A stretch of DNA of 64,000 nucleotides from Cloeon dipterum (lineage: Eukaryota; Arthropoda; Insecta; Ephemeroptera; Baetidae), in contig NC_088788.1 in the NCBI RefSeq assembly GCF_949628265.1, positions 34,272,335 to 34,336,334 of the forward strand. The letters run 5' to 3'. The translations under genes and the position numbers were made by a program. The notes under the pieces are model-generated. The model was not told where the DNA came from and made no database searches. It saw only the letters and a program-made list of their open reading frames with translations. Each line of letters starts with the position of its first letter. Position 1 is the first letter of the stretch. Below, in pieces: positions 17,014 through 62,313 of the stretch.

Positions 17014-17962
17014 TTAATTCAGGAATCGAATCGACATTTTCTGTTCCACATCAGTACGTTCCAAGGCGTTGCAAAATTCAGCAAACGAAATCATTTGATC
17101 GCCGTCCTGATCAGCCTCAAAAATTGTTCGTTCCGCTATGCTGGTGAGTTGTTCCTCACTAAAAAAAATAAAAATAATTTAGGTTGTTTTCTTAGATGGC
17201 TAAGATAGTAAATATTATATATGCCCCGTATTTCAATGCTCTCATTAATGTGCTCACCAAAGCTTCATACTAATTATAATAGTCTATCATTCGTACCTGA
17301 TGTTGGATCCAACCATCATTTGCAAAATTGCCAGCAGCTCGTCTCTGGATATTTTGCCATCGCTATCAAGATCGTACATCTTAAAGGCAACTGCAAAGCG
17401 AATTTTTACCATCTATTTCAACTAATTAGTTCTAAAGAATTTACATTTCAGTTTTTGCTCTCGGGAGTTGAGCTTCAGGTCTTTGTTTTTCTTGATTGGC
17501 CTGAAGTGGGCCAAGACCTGCATGAACTGAAGGAAATTGATAGAGGAATCTCCAGTGCCCTCCTGGAAAAATGCATGGACGATCCTGTCGCCCAGGGGGT
17601 TGATCGCCAGCTCAGGAATCCGCAGCAGGTCCTCCCTACTCAGTGTTCCGCAATTTCCACGGTCCAAGCTGGTGAACCTGCTGTACAGACGCTCAATTTG
17701 GTTTGGCGTGACTGCAAAGTGAAAATAATTCAGTTTCAACGGCCGAAAACACGCACAAAGACAAAATCAAATTAGTCAATATGTAACGGCTGAATAATTA
17801 ATGCATGTTAATGGTGGAAAACAGGGAAAACGGTGTGTTTGTGGTGCAACCTTGGCCCCTTTCAAAACACGAAACGACGTAATTATTACACTTACATCCA
17901 GTTTTCTCCTGGATTTGGGCAATTTCGTCCTCCCTCAGGAGCAACGAAGAAGTGTTTCCCAT
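17014..17962 (-). CDS. CHP1: Calcineurin B homologous protein (CHP1/elmo type EF-hand protein)
   Basis: Four minus-strand exons: 17896-17962, 17445-17711, 17297-17390 and 17014-17158, giving 190 aa (human CHP1 is 195). It starts MGNTSSLLL, with a Gly2 myristoylation site. The block [21 protein letters not shown] is near-identical to CHP1. Two intact calcium-binding loops are seen, [12 protein letters not shown] (about 118-129) and [12 protein letters not shown] (about 160-171); the N-terminal EF-hands are degenerate, as in the family. It ends [11 protein letters not shown]. Family role: calcium sensor that binds Na+/H+ exchangers and helps vesicle traffic. Tail to tail with TMEM107 (330 bp) and head to head with the SWEET gene (732 bp). 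Confidence 0.92.
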
Positions 17963-30195: not shown

Positions 30196-31154
30196 CTGTC
30201 TCTGTATGGAATCTCGAAAACAACATCGTGTTTTTCTTACTAAAATAAAATTCCATTTGTTTCGTAGAACCTGATGTGCATTGAATCGTCTATTTCTCAT
30301 CTACGTAAAGTAGATTTTCTAGAACAGTGTGACTGTGAAACCAGTTTTCATTCAATCTAGATTAACTCTACCGAATCAATATGGTTTGTTTTAATCCTTT
30401 GGAAGTTCATACCTACCGGGATATTTGGACAAAATAGTCATAAAAAATGTCCGTAATTTTATTGTAGTAAAAAGTTTTTTGGAAAAAAATTAAATTATGA
30501 ATTAACAAATTTTTACGTAATACAAATATTAGAATTTTTCAGAATATGATCGAATATATATGTATAACCATTAAAAGCTTACAAAAGTTTTAAACTTTTT
30601 TCTGTGCGAAGTTAATTTTTTTTTTTTTTTTTTTTTGAACGTCGAAAATGATCAAAGAATTTTTATTATCGAACATTTATGTTATCTAGGTTGAGCACAA
30701 GCAATGTATTTTAAAATCAATTTTGGACCCTTTAAATATTAAAATAATTATTGTCAAATCGAAATCTTGCATCGCTGTACTTAGTTAAATATCGGAAAAA
30801 TTGCTTCACGAATTGAATGGTTTTCCCAAAAACTATAAAACGACGAGTTTCTTCAAAACGGTTGAAAGGATTTTGGAGGTTATTTTGCCTGGCTTCTGCC
30901 AGATTCGCGCCCACTTCATCACCAATAATTTCCTGTCGTCTGAGTGAGCTACGCCAATGGCGAAGCATTCCTTTCCCTCCATTTTCTCCTTTCTGCCTTG
31001 TGTGCTTTGCTTGTCGACTGACGCTGACTCTTCTCGCTTCTAACCGGAGACTACCTCAACACCTGAACTTTTAAGCAAGATCAAGGCGGCTTTGAGAGCT
31101 AAGAGCTAGCGAGCATCTTTTGGAGGTCCTTTTACCACTGATTAGACACTTAAA
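30196..31154. other. Intergenic region
   Basis: It holds the NAA40 3' UTR, a 21-nt T run at 30616-30636 and, from about 30880, a less AT-rich stretch likely to be the promoter and 5' UTR of the next gene. Open frames here show no domain. Confidence 0.5.
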
Positions 31155-33064
31155 ATGGTATTATTATTTATATCTTTATGGAAGATTCAAAACATGTTCA
31201 TTCTGTATGTTTGTTGTTACTCATACACTGCTTTTTGCACAAATATGTAACATGTAGTTGCATTGCAGTTGCAGGATATGGATCCAAGATGGGCCCGATG
31301 GGCCGAATTTCACCAAAAATTTAAGCCGTTATGTTTGGTTTGTAGGAAAAACAAACCGCGAGAAGACCCGATCAGAAGGACGAACAGGTATGTATTGATT
31401 TTAAATTTGTTAACGCTCGACAAGAAGAATTGTTCAAAACCTGCTCCTCTTAAAGGGAAGTGAGGGCCATCTGCAATTACCCCCCGCCTGGCATCGAGGT
31501 GGTGCCGGACCTTGATGATGCGGATAAGTTGCACACCTTCATCACGTGCACGGATAACACTTCGATATACTTGATTATCCGCCTCCCAAAAAACTACCCA
31601 AATGAGGGGCCAAGGGTCACGTGTATGACCGACGCCAGCTGCACTGCGGTCTTCGAACCCTACGGCAAGAAGGTGCTTCTCAGCATGCTTGGCACAGAGG
31701 AACCGTTCGACTGGAGCCCAGACGAAAGCCTGGAAAGCGTGCTCATCTCAATCCAGCGCTTCCTGAACAATGAAGCAGAGCTCGTCAAGGTATTTTGGAT
31801 AAAGAAAATAATTTTTGTCTGGCAGCTGGTTAAAAAGGACTGATTTTCCCCAAAATCCGCTAATTATTACCATAAAATAGTTATTAAACAGCTCTGCAAG
31901 GAACCATAATCTGTCCTAGTTGATCACAATATAAATTTTATTCCATTTTTCAATTGGAAATGAGTCGTCTTTGGCCATTTAATTATGAATGGATTTAAGT
32001 ATAAATTTATGAAATTTATTCTATTTATCTACCAAATAAACGCTGTGATTCACACTTTTAACCTTTTTTCGCAACGCATTTCCTTGTGAACAGGTCCTAT
32101 CCGACCTGCAGGGTCAAGCCACCGCAGCACCTATCCAAGCAACACGGAAGTGGCACCAGTCGATCACTCCAGATTTACGAAATCGCCTAGTTTTTAAAAC
32201 GTGAGTAGAGAATAATTTATTGTTGATTCAGTCAATTCAAACTGATGATTTTTACAGATTTCGAGGAATATATCCTACTCGGGATGTCCAAGCATTGACG
32301 CACAAAAATATTAATAAATTAATCGAATACGCCAGAAAAGTCGAAGGTGATTTGTATCAAAAATCGACATCAAAAGTGAGTTCTTTTAGATTTTTAAATT
32401 AGGAACGAGAAGCAGTTAATTCTGATCGTGTTTTTGTTTGGTTTTCAGTATGAATATTATCTTTTACTACATAAGATAACCCTTGAGGTCGAAGATAAAC
32501 GTGGTGAGTACAAACTAGTAATATTGGATGTGGATAAAGATGCATTCCTTTTTAAAAGGCTTTAGTTAATCAAAATTAGGAATTCAACAGGAAATATTAT
32601 AATAGTCCTTCAAATATTATTTGAAGTGTTAAGTAGGATGCACTAATTTTAGTTAGCAGGTATTCCTGCGAGGCATAAACTTCTTGAAAGCTGAAAACTA
32701 TGAAGATAGTGTTTTGGAATTTGTAAAGATAAACAAAATAATACTCATTTGGATCAAACTCAATCAAACCTAATGATTAACATTATTAAGTGCTTCCAAC
32801 TGCTAAGAATTGAAGAGAGTTAACATTTCCTAATTCTACCTTCAAAAATAGTTAGTGAAAGGATTTAAATTCTTCATCTGTTCACAAATCTGTTTCATTT
32901 ATTTGAATTAAGGTAATTATTTTCGCTAATTTGGATGTGCATTTTCTCTTTTTCACTAAACAGAGAAGATTTGGCAGCGGGACCTCAAAGAGCTCAAGCA
33001 GCTGCGGCAGAATCTGCTGTCGGTGATGCATAGTTACGTGATCCCGAGACAAGAGACAAGCTAG
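31155..33064 (+). CDS. Inactive UBE2Z-like E2 domain fused to a CBP/p300-type KIX domain
   Basis: Seven exons: 31155-31157 (ATG only), 31269-31387, 31456-31789, 32094-32200, 32258-32375, 32449-32503 and 32964-33064, giving 278 aa. Residues about 41-150 match the UBE2Z-type E2 fold (YPPPGIEVVPDLDDADKLH; LPKNYPNEGPRV; KKVLLSMLG; DWSPDESLESVLISIQ). The catalytic Cys of UBE2Z (VCLS) is Leu115 here, the NPN-like motif is gone and the loop after TGP is shortened, so it should be unable to carry ubiquitin. Residues about 170-250 are a KIX domain (RKWHQSITPDLRNRLV; YARKVEGDLYQ; YEYYLLL) strikingly like that of CBP. A basic helix ends the protein. KIX domains bind transactivation helices. I know of no named gene with this pairing. 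A downstream Met at 31278 is an alternative start. Confidence 0.85.
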
Positions 33065-34073
33065 AAGAAGCTGAATAAGCATCAGCAGCCCATGATGGAC
33101 ATGGGAATAATTATGACTTTTATGTCTTCCAACTAGCAGCAACCATATTGATCAATTTGTATACAATACCTGAGCCTATATCAAAACTTGTTTAAACGCG
33201 ATGACACATCACAAATGTTTTTTTAAGAAGAGGTTTTCCATTTAAAGGATTTAAAGCATATTTTCTGCAGTCATTATCTAAATGAGCATTCGAGGATTTA
33301 GTAATAAACCTTGAAATATGCAAGTTTATCAGAACGTATTTTTCCAAATCCCTTGATATCTATATTATATATATTCTCAGAATAATTCACGCATGCAGCC
33401 TATGAGAGATTATTTACCTCTCGCTATTGGTTAGGTAAAGATGATGAAAAAAGGTTGATTATAAAATTTTAACCTTTAAAATAGAACTACTGCGTGATTT
33501 TTTTTGCTCTTTTTGTAAGTATTTCAAATCAGCTTTTATTTAAATAAAATAATTTACAGACGAAAGACCAACTGCACAATTATTCATTTTTTCATTGCAT
33601 TTTAAAATTATTATTTATTACAATAATTTTTTTTGGACCCATACCACGGGTCTAACGTAACGCGTTCACATTCTCACAATCGCGGTTGGAATCCTTAAAA
33701 CTATAAAATTCGCGCCCACCTCTTGCCAGTCCTATCAATGTCGATGCGCGGTTCATTTTTCGAATGATTCTGACATTGCTGTGGCTGCCACCTGTCGATG
33801 TAACTGTTAAGCAAGGTCAATAACAAACAAACCACCAGAAGAGGCGCATAATGTGTATCTTTTGACCGATGAGATTCAATCGACCGTATTGAACAACTTA
33901 GCAATGGTACTTTGCTTTGAATTATGTCGCTAGAACTGCTGTAATATTCTCTCACAGTCAGCATAAATAGATTTGAAATTCAGAGTGCTCAATCATAAGG
34001 CCTCAGGCAAGTCAAAAGCATCAATTTATTTTAAAAATTTGTTCATTCGAATTTAAAAACCTTTCCTCTAGAC
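33065..34073. other. Intergenic region
   Basis: AATAAA at 33303-33308 probably ends the E2-KIX transcript. The remainder is AT-rich and probably includes the promoter of the FKBP-TPR gene. The 87-codon reverse frame at 33701-33964 has no recognisable features and is judged a chance frame. Confidence 0.5.
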
Positions 34074-55248: not shown

Positions 55249-57127
55249 ATGGTCCTGACCAGCACGTAAGAAATAAAAAATATCTTCTCTAACGAGGCAA
55301 ACCCTTATATTGCACAAAATTCAAGTGGATTGCTTTCCTAAATTAAAAAACCAAATTGACTCTACGTGTATCCCGTCTTGTGTCCCGAAAAGTTGCAATT
55401 TTATCATTGAGTGACACCAGTTGTAAAAAGGGAGCGTTGGATTCTAACTACATGCAGTGGTGTCCGAATAGAGCATTATATGCGTCTGTTATGATTCTAA
55501 TAAATATTTGTAACAAAAAATAATTTCAAATCACTTGATTCCTTTGGTCTTTACTATAATGTCTTAAATTTCAGGTTCAGAATTGTGCAGCAAAGAAGGC
55601 GAAGACAGCTAGGACCAATCTCTTTGAGAGACCAGTGCATCCGAATCGTTCTGAACAATAAAGCCTTCTATGTCAACTATCACATTACAAATGGCATCAA
55701 CCCTTTTGCAGAATTACGTATGCTAAACAATATTGCAACCATAATTTCTATACAATCGCATTTCTAGCTGACTGTTTGATAAATGAACTTCGAGAAAAAG
55801 AAATCGGAAACATCTACACTTCTGAATATGAACTGCAGCATCTCTTCATCAATCCTAGAATGAAAAGTATAGAGATAGCTTCGAAGCTTGACTCTCCCAG
55901 CTTCAAAAAGATATGGGATGCATTAAATGATAATAAACCACCTTTGGAAATCTTCATTTGGGAGCGATGGCCCATTCTGTTTGACCAACGTGTAACCTTT
56001 GATGCTGTGATGTCGTATGGAGGTCTCAAAATCCTTTCGCTAACCCAATATCCACAGAACGATGGTCATTTAGAAGAAATTGCATCAAAGCTAAAGTCTC
56101 TAAGGTTTGCATTGGATGAATTTATTAATTTAAAATAAGCAAATATGATTATTGCAGGGTTCTCAAAATAGGACTAGAAGAGAGAAATGTCACCATGAGA
56201 GGTCTGACGGCGCTTTCAAAACTTGAAAATCTGCAAGATTTTCAGTTCAATGAATACGATCGTGAGCCAAATGATCATCCAGTGTACCAAGAGATCTTCA
56301 ACCAGTGCCTGCATCTGATGCCAAAACTTCACACCATTGGTACTTCTGTATTCATTGCCATAAATCATGTTCTAGGTTACCCCATTGACCGACCCATCAG
56401 CTCAATTCTTGAATTGAACCTGAAGCAAATATTGCTGAAAAACTGTGGCACAATCCCTCCAAACATTCGCTTGCCACAATTGAAGGAACTGTATCTCATG
56501 CACCCGATTGAGAACATAAATGCTGATGAGCGATTCTCAAACGTAACTGTGCTTGGAATGTACAAGATCAGCCTTAGATCTATGTTTCGGGCTATACAAT
56601 TGATTGGAAAAAATATTGAAAAGCTCGTCATCTCTCATATTGTGGAGAGTATTAATTTGGGTGAGGTGTTCCGATCGTGTCCAAATCTGAAGGAATTTGA
56701 AATGCCTGAGAGCCCTGCGAAGTTTATCATGACGGGCCCGTTTCTTCCTTTTGTTCAACAATTAGAAAACTTGAGCATCGATTTGGTAAGTCCCCACAAA
56801 TCTAGTTTTCCTAAAGGCATGTTGGCCTACCTGCTGAAAGCCCCAGCCCTGAAAAAAGTTGCGTTTAACTGCTTGTATGTGACGCAAGAAGAGACAAACT
56901 CGATTGTCAAAGGTTTGGAACGTGGAACCATGCTGCAAAACCTTGAGTCTTTTCAGTACTTCAATTACACTGCTTGTGACAATGATGATCCAAGCAACTT
57001 AACTGCTGCTGAGAATGTTTCTGACGAAGAATTTTTCAATCCGGTTTTGAGAGGCCGATTTGATGTGTTGTTTAAAAAACTAGCTTTGCACTGCCCGGAA
57101 TTCGTGAATCTAGTTGAAAACAACTAA
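55249..57127 (+). CDS. F-box/leucine-rich-repeat-like protein, paralogue A
   Basis: Four exons: 55249-55265, 55575-55717, 55768-56104 and 56158-57127, giving 488 aa. The start exon codes MVLTS plus two bases. Residues about 15-70 (PISLRDQCIRIVLNNKAFYV, then FAELPDCLINELREKEI) form an F-box-like helical N-terminus. The rest has irregular LRR-like strands (LKILSLTQYP; LKELYLMHPIENI; LEKLVISHI-type; LKEFEMPESP; LENLSIDLV) as in insect F-box/LRR families. Family role: substrate choosers of SCF ubiquitin ligases, or diverged relatives without that job; neither is shown. Introns 2 and 3 are 50 and 53 nt. It is a tandem copy of paralogue B; both are intact. AATAAA-like signals lie near 57590. Confidence 0.75.
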
Positions 57128-60427: not shown

Positions 60428-62313
60428 ATGGTCCTGAGCAGCACGTAAGCAAAAAATAAGCTTCTCTAACGAGACACAAAACCGTATATTAAACCCCACC
60501 AAAATCAAGAGGATTGCTTTCCTAAATTAAAAAGCCACATTGAGTCTACGTGTGCCACGTTTTGCACGTGTCCCGAAAAGTTGCAATTTCATTATTGAGT
60601 AACACCATCGTTGTAAAAAGGGAGTGTTGGATTCTAACCACATGCAGCGTCCAACTGGAGCATGTTTGTTCTGTTCTGATTCTAAAAAATATGTATAACA
60701 AAAATTCATTTCAAATCACTGATTTTTCTCTTCATTTCTATAATGTCTTAAATTTCAGGTTCAGAATTGTGCAGCAAAGAAGGCGAAGACAGCTAGGACC
60801 AATCTCTTTGAGAGACCAGTGCATCCGAATCGTTCTGAACAATAAAGCCTTCTATGTCAACTATCACATTACAAATGGCATCAACCCTTTTGCAGAATTA
60901 CGTATGCTAAACAATATTGCAACCATAATTTCTATACAATCGCATTTCTAGCTGACTTTTTGATAAATGAACTTCGAGAAAAAGAAATCGGAAACATCTA
61001 CACTTCTGAATATGAACTGCAGCATCTCTTCATCAATCCTAGAATGAAAAGTATAGAGATAGCTTCGAAGCTTGACTCTCCCAGCTTCAAAAAGATATGG
61101 GATGCATTAAATGATAATAAACCACCTTTGGAAACCTTCATTTGGGAGCGATGGCCCATTCTGTTTGACCAACGTGTAACCTTTGATGCTGTGATGTCGT
61201 ATGGAGGTCTCAAAATCCTTTCGCTAACCCAATTTCCACAGAACGATGGTCATTTAGAAGAAATTGCATCAAAGCTAAAGTCTCTAAGGTTTGCATTGGA
61301 TGAATTTTTTTTAATTTAAAGTAAGCAAATATGATTATTGCAGGGTTCTCAAAATAGGACTAGAAGAGAGAAATGTCACCTTGAGAGGTCTGACGGCGCT
61401 TTCAAAACTTGAAAATCTGCAAGATTTTCAGTTCAATGAATACGATCGTGAGCCAAATGATCATCCAGTGTACCAAGAGATCTTCAACCAGTGCCTGCAT
61501 CTGATGCCAAAACTTCACACCATTGGTACTTCTGTATTCATTGCCATAAATCATGTTCTAGGTTACCCCATTGACCGACCCATCAGCTCAATTCTTGAAT
61601 TGAACCTGAAGCAAATATTGCTGAAAAACTGTGGCACAATCCCTCCAAACATTCGCTTGCCACAATTGAAGGAACTGTATCTCATGCACCCGATTGAGAA
61701 CATAAATGCTGATGAGCGATTCTCAAACGTAACTGTGCTTGGAATGTACAAGATCAGCCTTAGATCTATGTTTCGGGCTATACAATTGATTGGAAAAAAT
61801 ATTGAAAAGCTCGTCATCTCTCATATTGTGGAGAATATTAATTTGGGTGAGGTGTTCCGATTGTGTCCAAATCTGAAGGAATTTGAAATGCCTGAGAGCC
61901 CTGAGCAGTTTATCATGACGGGCCCGTTTCTTCCTTTTGTTCAACAATTAGAAAACTTGAGCATCGATTTGGTAAGTCCCCACAATTCTAGTTTCCCTGA
62001 TGGCATGCTGGCGCACTTGCTGAAAGCTCCAGCCCTAAAAAAAGTTGCGTTTAACTGCTTGTATGTGACGCAAGAAGAGACAAACTCGATTGTCAAAGGT
62101 GTGGAAGAAGGAACCATGCTGCAAAACCTCGAGTCTTTTCAGTACTTCAATTACACTGCTTGTGACAATGATGATCCAAGCAACTTAGCTGCCGCTGAGA
62201 ATGTTTCTGACGAAGAATTTTTCAATCCGATTTTGAGAGGCCGCTTTGATGTGTTGTTTAAAAAATTGGCTCTGCACTGTCCGAAGTTCGTGAATTTAGT
62301 TGAAAACAACTAA
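60428..62313 (+). CDS. F-box/leucine-rich-repeat-like protein, paralogue B
   Basis: Four exons: 60428-60444, 60759-60901, 60952-61288 and 61344-62313, giving 488 aa, the same length and exon phases as paralogue A. The start exon codes MVLSS plus two bases. From just before exon 2 to about 61965 the DNA differs from paralogue A at only around ten positions, introns included. Beyond that the last 350 coding bases and the 3' UTR diverge more, with changes such as PAKF to PEQF and KGLERG to KGVEEG. No disabling change is seen. Function as for paralogue A. Downstream AATAAA near 62519. Confidence 0.75.

Follow-up and report, generated by a model that had tools for sequence, protein, structure and literature searches.

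Positions 31155–33064 of the window, the 64,000-nucleotide stretch of the Cloeon dipterum genome analyzed here, hold seven exons separated by GT-AG introns with matching phases, which together give one open frame of 276 amino acids (Table 1). The encoded protein combines an E2-like (UBC) part of UBE2Z type with a KIX domain of CBP type and is referred to as the chimera in the following. The seven-exon, in-phase model of the first-pass annotation was thus borne out, and the 278-residue product stated there, as opposed to 276 residues in our main model, is explained by two in-frame acceptors of exon 2 that lie 6 nt apart, the longer product fitting the upstream one. Candidates for the start codon are the ATG at 31155 in exon 1 and a second ATG at 31278 in exon 2, from which a protein of 274 amino acids would result. 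The chimera has 7 nt more than UBE2Z between the old UBE2Z start codon and a CACC that both have in common. This change puts the counterpart of the UBE2Z start, ATG 31290 in exon 2, outside the frame, so that translation has to begin at a different ATG. At the beginning of exon 4, the parental CBP acceptor gcag reads gcat in the chimera, and a site inside the parental exon is used instead. There is no in-frame Met between amino acids 117 and 264. In-frame translation of the KIX domain (amino acids 167–239) therefore has to begin in the E2 exons, and every KIX product would include some or all of the E2 remnant.

Table 1 Features of the chimeric gene and of the inserted copy (positions of the window; rc, reverse complement of C2:22090001-22140000)
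Feature	Position	Strand	Description
Promoter and 5'UTR, UBE2Z-derived	30903..31154	+	Left end of the inserted copy
Exon 1, end	31155..31157	+	Carries the first in-frame ATG, where the 5'UTR of UBE2Z reads ACG; donor (gtatta) shared with UBE2Z
Exon 2	31275..31387	+	N-terminal part, strongly diverged from UBE2Z exon 2; holds the second in-frame ATG (31278)
Exon 3	31456..31789	+	UBE2Z-like UBC domain, truncated and with Leu in place of the catalytic Cys; Pfam UQ_con 36.5 bits
Intron 3	31790..32093	+	Fusion junction at ~32010-32049; left part UBE2Z intron 3, right part CBP pre-KIX intron
Exon 4	32094..32200	+	Linker ahead of KIX in CBP and beginning of KIX; acceptor shifted 24 nt into the parental CBP exon
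Exon 5	32258..32375	+	Middle of KIX, end of alpha1 to alpha2; 85/118 nt identical to the CBP exon
Exon 6	32449..32503	+	KIX alpha3; 32/55 nt identical to the CBP exon
Exon 7	32964..33064	+	Start of the CBP poly-Gln exon, poly-Gln lost; terminates in a stop codon
CBP 3'UTR stretch with AATAAA	33263..33360	+	87/98 identical to rc 31003-31100
CBP-UBE2Z spacer up to the UBE2Z promoter	33519..33725	+	Right end of the inserted copy

Other parts of the window carry features of their own. By eye, the chimera is flanked upstream by a GNAT gene that looks NAA40-like and downstream by an FKBP/TPR-like gene. Two near-identical reading frames of 332 amino acids at 56129–57127 and 61315–62313 represent a recent tandem duplication, and the former shows weak leucine-rich-repeat matches below the cut-off. 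The segment 6978–7298 has matches of 75–77% at two places in the C2 region and a short match of 82% at a third, and is probably a dispersed repeat.

The E2-like part is recognized by the Pfam profile UQ_con (PF00179) at amino acids 36–145 (36.5 bits, cut-off 27, E 4.5e-9), and a phmmer search of the PDB returned UBE2Z with an E value of 2.5e-16, which confirms the UBE2Z type assigned in the first-pass annotation. The match spans profile positions 1–111 of 140, i.e., the E2 is truncated. The earlier description as a dead E2 domain therefore holds for the lost catalytic cysteine and not for the extent of the domain, of which only a fragment is present. The residue aligned with the cysteine is Leu113 in the numbering of the 276-residue protein and corresponds to the Leu115 reported before. 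Aligned with the insect's own UBE2Z, 59 of 106 E2 residues are identical, the HPN-type Asn of UBE2Z falls in an alignment gap, and five residues of the PYEGG turn are gone. With the cysteine exchanged, the Asn and the turn lost and the C-terminal part absent, the predicted E2 part cannot be capable of conjugation. AlphaFold structure prediction for exon 3 alone, run without an alignment, gave a pLDDT of 47, too low to be informative about the fold.

UBE2Z (USE1), whose partner E1 is UBA6, thus resembles the chimera in its N-terminal UBC part and has contributed the promoter and first exons, while it differs in possessing the catalytic Cys, the HPN-type Asn, the PYEGG turn and everything beyond about profile position 111 of 140. 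UEV proteins (MMS2/UEV1A, TSG101) likewise contain a UBC-like domain without the catalytic Cys and the C-terminal helices, and the chimera shares both traits. Its E2 part, however, was derived independently and recently from UBE2Z. Membership in the UEV family was rejected, as the UEV profile was not among the six Pfam families matched by the chimera protein at E<=1 and descent is from UBE2Z instead. The chimera is a recent hybrid of two neighboring genes of the same genome and not an old UEV-like family, which the first-pass annotation had not anticipated.

The KIX domain was detected with PF02172 at amino acids 167–239 (57.9 bits, cut-off 27, E 1.3e-15), compared with 139.2 bits for the KIX domain of the insect's own CBP. 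In the profile search that the first-pass annotation had proposed as a test, both domains hence scored above their Pfam cut-offs. KIX is the only CBP domain found by Pfam in the chimera. A search for the KIX family in the genome missed the window gene because its KIX is split over short exons; the search with the chimera protein found it. In the PDB, p300 KIX was matched with an E value of 1.1e-17, and p300/CBP KIX and UBE2Z are the nearest solved structures. These matches, along with exon and intron homology to the insect's own CBP, corroborate the CBP type of the domain and rule out descent from MED15 or RECQL5. The latter has also been named as a KIX class (PMC5668377), such that the earlier statement restricting KIX domains to CBP/p300 and MED15 was incomplete.

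The KIX exons of the chimera, their introns and a 3'UTR stretch come from the insect's CBP (CBP/p300, nejire), but the protein sequence has moved far from it: 37 of 76 KIX residues are identical between the chimera and its own CBP, against 62 of 76 between that CBP and human CBP. In helix alpha3, 14 of 19 residues are changed. Exon 6, which encodes this helix, has the same length as its CBP parent exon (55 nt), and we therefore chose the ungapped alignment, in which Tyr658 of CBP is replaced by Leu237 and Lys662 by Asp241. The first-pass annotation had reported Thr in place of Tyr658. Loss of the tyrosine is found under either alignment, while Thr occupies the position only when a one-residue gap is introduced. 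Tyr658 and Lys662 of CBP touch phospho-Ser133 of CREB, and MED15, which is devoid of equivalents of both, showed no significant binding of CREB or Myb (PMC3936767). In the conserved core network of KIX domains (L603, L607, I611, L628, L653, I657 and I660; PMC3936767), four of seven positions are identical in the chimera, I660V is conservative, and Leu607Thr and Ile657Thr are not. With three of the seven core aliphatics changed, the domain may fold poorly. Residues Trp591, Leu603, Tyr640, Tyr649, Tyr650 and Leu653 are kept. The other face of the domain, to which Ile611 and Leu628 presumably belong, is kept at these two positions and at Tyr631. The location of Tyr631 on that face is taken from the literature (PMC3936767).

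Both parental genes are present in the same genome, which comprises 190 Mb in 10 contigs, five of them 33–43 Mb in size (telomere repeats were not found in the first 160 bases of the contigs, only satellite-like sequence). It contains five matches to 7tm_6, an odorant-receptor family that marks insects. The protein search of the genome, with 10 matches, located UBE2Z with an intact Cys at C2:22106296-22106652(-) with 54% identity and the CBP KIX exons at C2:22125435-22125895(-) with 55 and 43% identity to the chimera; the next E2 match had 29% identity. CBP and UBE2Z reside about 19 kb apart on one strand of C2, CBP first. The parental breakpoints are 19.9 kb apart, and the chance of finding two unrelated loci within 20 kb of each other in a 190-Mb genome is about 2e-4.

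Homology extends well beyond the exons. The segment 30903–32036 corresponds, in pieces, to rc 32539–33981 and covers the UBE2Z promoter, exons 1–3 and the first part of intron 3, with 34 of 40 positions identical for 30903–30945 against rc 32539–32580, 149 of 186 for 30969–31168 against rc 32703–32916, and 190 of 224 for the UBE2Z part of intron 3 against rc 33756–33981. The match at the left end was equaled in none of 2000 mononucleotide shuffles. Inside intron 3, at 32049 (~rc 14099), the match to CBP starts, which places the junction within about 40 bp, the precision of the breakpoint being limited by divergence. From there to 32762 (~rc 14798), the copy holds the end of the CBP pre-KIX intron and the KIX exons with their introns, and a looser alignment extends this block to 32954 (~rc 15000). 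The introns flanking exon 5 are 87–89% identical to those of CBP, a higher value than that for the exon itself. Two further stretches stem from the CBP poly-Gln exon, namely 32904–33030 (94/120 identical to rc 17352–17473) and 33066–33143 (~rc 17753–17823). They are followed by the segment with the poly-A signal, whose counterpart we infer to be CBP 3'UTR because it follows the final reading frame of CBP, and by the spacer, for which 116 of 136 positions are identical between 33519–33673 and rc 32375–32516 and 19 of 23 between 33703–33725 and rc 32534–32556. No match in the chimera was found for most of rc 15.0–17.35k and 17.8–31.0k, i.e., most of CBP. The DNA search of the genome, in which the best candidates were scored, yielded seven matches: the window, five parental blocks on C2, and a match of 75 bp on C3. 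This last one (C3:2899722-2899796, 80% identity) is a further copy of the intron 3 part 31916–31989. Note also that, intron 4 (48/54) aside, no noncoding pair of the copy is as well conserved as the 3'UTR stretch; a control element common to both 3'UTRs may be the reason.

We thus state that the chimera is almost certainly a hybrid of the insect's own CBP and UBE2Z. A retrocopy origin was ruled out, as introns are retained. The fusion of E2 and KIX claimed in the first-pass annotation is backed by the anatomy of the locus, in which the KIX domain has no in-frame Met of its own and the 3' end is homologous to the CBP 3'UTR. That two separate genes, one E2-like and one encoding a KIX protein, lie side by side is very improbable, because exons are in phase across the junction, the KIX exons offer no start codon in frame, and intron 3 is composed half of UBE2Z and half of CBP intron and contains no promoter block from another gene. 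As to how the copy arose, its block order is the parental order rotated: it corresponds to rc ~14.09k to ~33.98k with the ends joined and opened at rc ~32.54k. Both ends of the insert overlap by 12–18 bp at one point of the UBE2Z promoter. The match at the right tail is weak, with 3 of 2000 shuffles as good, but leaving it out still puts the ends within about 25 bp of one another in the parental sequence (rc 32516 and 32539). The 12-mer found at the opening point has a single copy in the 50-kb C2 stretch and two in the window, one at each end of the insert (30903 and 33708); genome-wide there are 17 copies, compared with 19 for the reversed control. In human segmental duplications, rotated order has been described as the signature of circular intermediates (PMC7450558). 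Together with the meeting of both ends at one promoter point, it leads us to a circular intermediate of about 20 kb, which we regard as highly likely. A tandem duplication on C2 that generated a second CBP behind a first UBE2Z, with the junction piece later moved to C3 and no circle involved, would yield the same block order, and the CBP locus does contain another partial repeat. On this account, both ends must have hit the same point of the UBE2Z promoter by chance in two different copies, and no remnant of a tandem copy is among the seven genomic matches of the best candidates scored. We consider this course of events improbable.

According to the circular scenario, a segment of about 19.9 kb, reaching from the CBP pre-KIX intron to UBE2Z intron 3, would have been copied as a circle, the ends of which were joined inside two introns. 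The closing junction has phase-0 introns on both sides, and this is why the fusion is in frame. The circle would then have been opened within the UBE2Z promoter and integrated on C3, so that the copy reads UBE2Z promoter, exons 1–3, CBP KIX exons, CBP 3'UTR and spacer, with most of the CBP interior missing. Circle-mediated segmental duplications in human and cattle (PMC7450558) show the same flip of block order (A-B/C-D to B-A/D-C), ends that meet at one opening point, and a target not in tandem with the source. They differ in size, with 82–244 kb for the examples considered, and the word 'chimeric' is absent from the accessible part of that text; here the closing junction itself creates the fusion gene. 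Chimeric genes formed by DNA copying are well known (PMC5460883, PMC2926785). Those formed by exon shuffling in Drosophila likewise involve DNA duplication of gene parts and a swap of regulatory regions, but they arose from tandem duplications (PMC5460883), while the rotated order at our locus points to a circle and to insertion on another contig. Literature searches for new genes from circles returned nothing on point among the matches listed.

Is the open frame kept by selection? Our yardstick for neutral change consisted of seven noncoding segments with 717 of 848 sites identical and 43 gaps; promoter/5'UTR, intron 1, the CBP part of intron 3 and the 3'UTR were omitted, partly since they align with large gaps. 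When these four are added, 1118 of 1343 sites are identical (225 differences). Noncoding divergence between chimera and parents thus amounts to about 15–17%, which suggests that close relatives should carry the chimera. Gap counts, simulations and rate tests covered exons 3–6. In a codon-guided alignment with the parents, all four gaps in these exons are multiples of three (5, 2 and 1 amino acids in exon 3 and 9 nt in exon 4), compared with 6 of 43 in noncoding DNA (p 0.0012). The gapped alternative for exon 6 adds one gap of 4 amino acids, and the gap count depends on the method, as exon 3 receives 16 gaps instead of 3 when its DNA is aligned freely. We also simulated neutral evolution of the parental exons 3–6 (220 codons) over a distance of 0.087, half the noncoding distance, in 20000 runs. 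At the noncoding indel rate the frame remained open in 12 runs (0.06%), at half that rate in 44 and at a quarter in 198. The argument leans on the indel rate, since without indels 3538 of the 20000 neutral runs (18%) stayed open. Selection has thus most likely preserved the frame, provided that exons do not have far fewer indels for some other reason.

The sequence within this frame has changed fast. At codon positions 1 and 2 of the KIX region, 49 of 184 sites differ (27%), significantly more than in noncoding DNA (131/848, p 3.6e-4; 225/1343 for the full noncoding set, p 0.0011), while 3 of 23 fourfold-degenerate sites in unchanged KIX codons differ. Among the 39 KIX residues that distinguish the chimera from its own CBP, human CBP agrees with the latter at 33 and with the chimera at one, and all three differ at five; 33 of the 39 changes would accordingly fall on the branch of the chimera. 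For the 47 E2 differences, the human protein sides with the insect's own at 33 and with the chimera at two, and all differ at 12. Exon 5, which is free of gaps, shows 20 of 78 differences at positions 1 and 2 (p 0.019 against noncoding 131/848, p 0.013 against the introns on either side), and differences are elevated at its third positions, too (13/40). Pairwise dN/dS for both domains is 0.61 (bootstrap 0.42–0.90). Nei-Gojobori values are 0.64 (0.36–1.19) for the gapped and 0.79 (0.44–1.44) for the ungapped KIX alignment and 0.58 (0.34–1.04) for the E2 part. Fourfold-degenerate sites of the E2 part differ at 14 of 31, above the level of noncoding DNA. We therefore make no claim of positive selection for this part, and noncoding DNA may evolve too slowly to serve as a yardstick for exons. 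Taken together, the sequence comparisons make acceleration of the chimera clear; positive selection on KIX is suggested by the noncoding yardstick and not by dN/dS, and proven positive selection was rejected, as dN/dS is not above 1.

Further sequences encoding TAZ or KIX domains are present in this genome. TAZ zinc-finger matches at the level of exons number 55 at E<=1, 51 of them above the cut-off and those of CBP itself included, and 31 lie in one 92-kb cluster at C2:6784179-6875729. This expansion of the TAZ domain is large and in part made up of recent tandem repeats, with pairs separated by 5.9 kb. The 5' exons of CBP that encode TAZ are present twice, about 11.9 kb apart (C2:22126863-22127018 and C2:22138753-22138908), indicating a partial duplication of CBP. 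Downstream of UBE2Z, at C2 ~22096.5–22097.4 kb (rc 42.6–43.5k), there is a diverged set of KIX exons, the borders of which resemble those of CBP by eye; when spliced, it scores 45.7 bits against PF02172 and represents a second KIX spin-off. Ahead of it, a TAZ-like Cys/His stretch is visible by eye that is absent from the TAZ matches. Literature on expansion of CBP/TAZ genes in insects gave nothing on point among the matches listed.

Two readings compete with that of a young gene in use. The hybrid could be a decaying pseudogene, a circular copy that drifted and stayed open by luck. Its catalytic residues are lost, the C-terminal part of the UBC domain is missing, the KIX core is altered, exon 2 has suffered an out-of-frame change, and the copy is in principle dispensable with both parents present elsewhere. 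In addition, dN/dS on the branch of the chimera could be near 1 if the parents, as assumed, are constrained and the pairwise value of 0.61 reflects this. An open frame with six intact GT-AG introns, gaps in exons 3–6 that are all in frame, and the rarity of neutral survival at full, half and quarter indel rates (less so with none) speak against decay, as does the finding that KIX positions 1 and 2 outpace noncoding DNA, which drift alone should not bring about. We deem the pseudogene rather unlikely. At the other extreme, the circle-born UBE2Z-KIX gene would have its KIX surface under positive selection and would act as a decoy against a rapidly changing parasite or selfish factor directed at CBP, as one member of a burst of small CBP-derived genes (TAZ-only, TAZ-KIX and UBE2Z-KIX). 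The excess of KIX change over the noncoding yardstick, the 14 exchanges in alpha3, the 55 TAZ-domain matches (CBP's own included) and the separate KIX-like exon set downstream of UBE2Z would fit such an arms race. As dN/dS does not exceed 1, we rate it as unlikely. The evidence favors, with good probability, a translated gene maintained by selection; confidence in this statement is tempered because exon 2 shows an out-of-frame change relative to UBE2Z. The chimera is probably a working young gene that is accelerated and perhaps positively selected, although dN/dS is not above 1.

For such a gene, one can envisage a small product without enzymatic activity that is made under the control of the UBE2Z promoter and acts as a competitor or adaptor, in which the E2 remnant would serve as carrier or docking surface. 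Selection would have held the frame open while the sequence, that of KIX above all, changed fast. The predicted KIX domain would retain the Myb/CREB groove and the core in part, but not the two phospho-serine contacts. Because both contacts are lost, it would act independently of phosphorylation on other or fewer ligands, most likely binding a subset of the CBP-KIX ligands, or new ones. The role as KIX competitor or adaptor is tentative. The explanation as a whole, comprising a circle-born hybrid, a frame kept by selection and a KIX competitor or adaptor, appears to us more probably right than wrong.

A combination of UBC and KIX in one protein was not found among the matches listed in a literature search, and ubiquitin is not mentioned in the accessible part of the KIXBASE paper. 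Since homology to both parents persists at the locus in introns, promoter and 3'UTR, the formation of the fusion is still readable: closure within two phase-0 introns gave an in-frame gene that has one parent's promoter and a stretch of 3'UTR from the other. CBP is a hub co-activator that is otherwise very conserved, as seen in the agreement of its KIX domain between this insect and human (62/76). If KIX was indeed positively selected, the chimera would provide a natural altered KIX domain and a sign of conflict over CBP.
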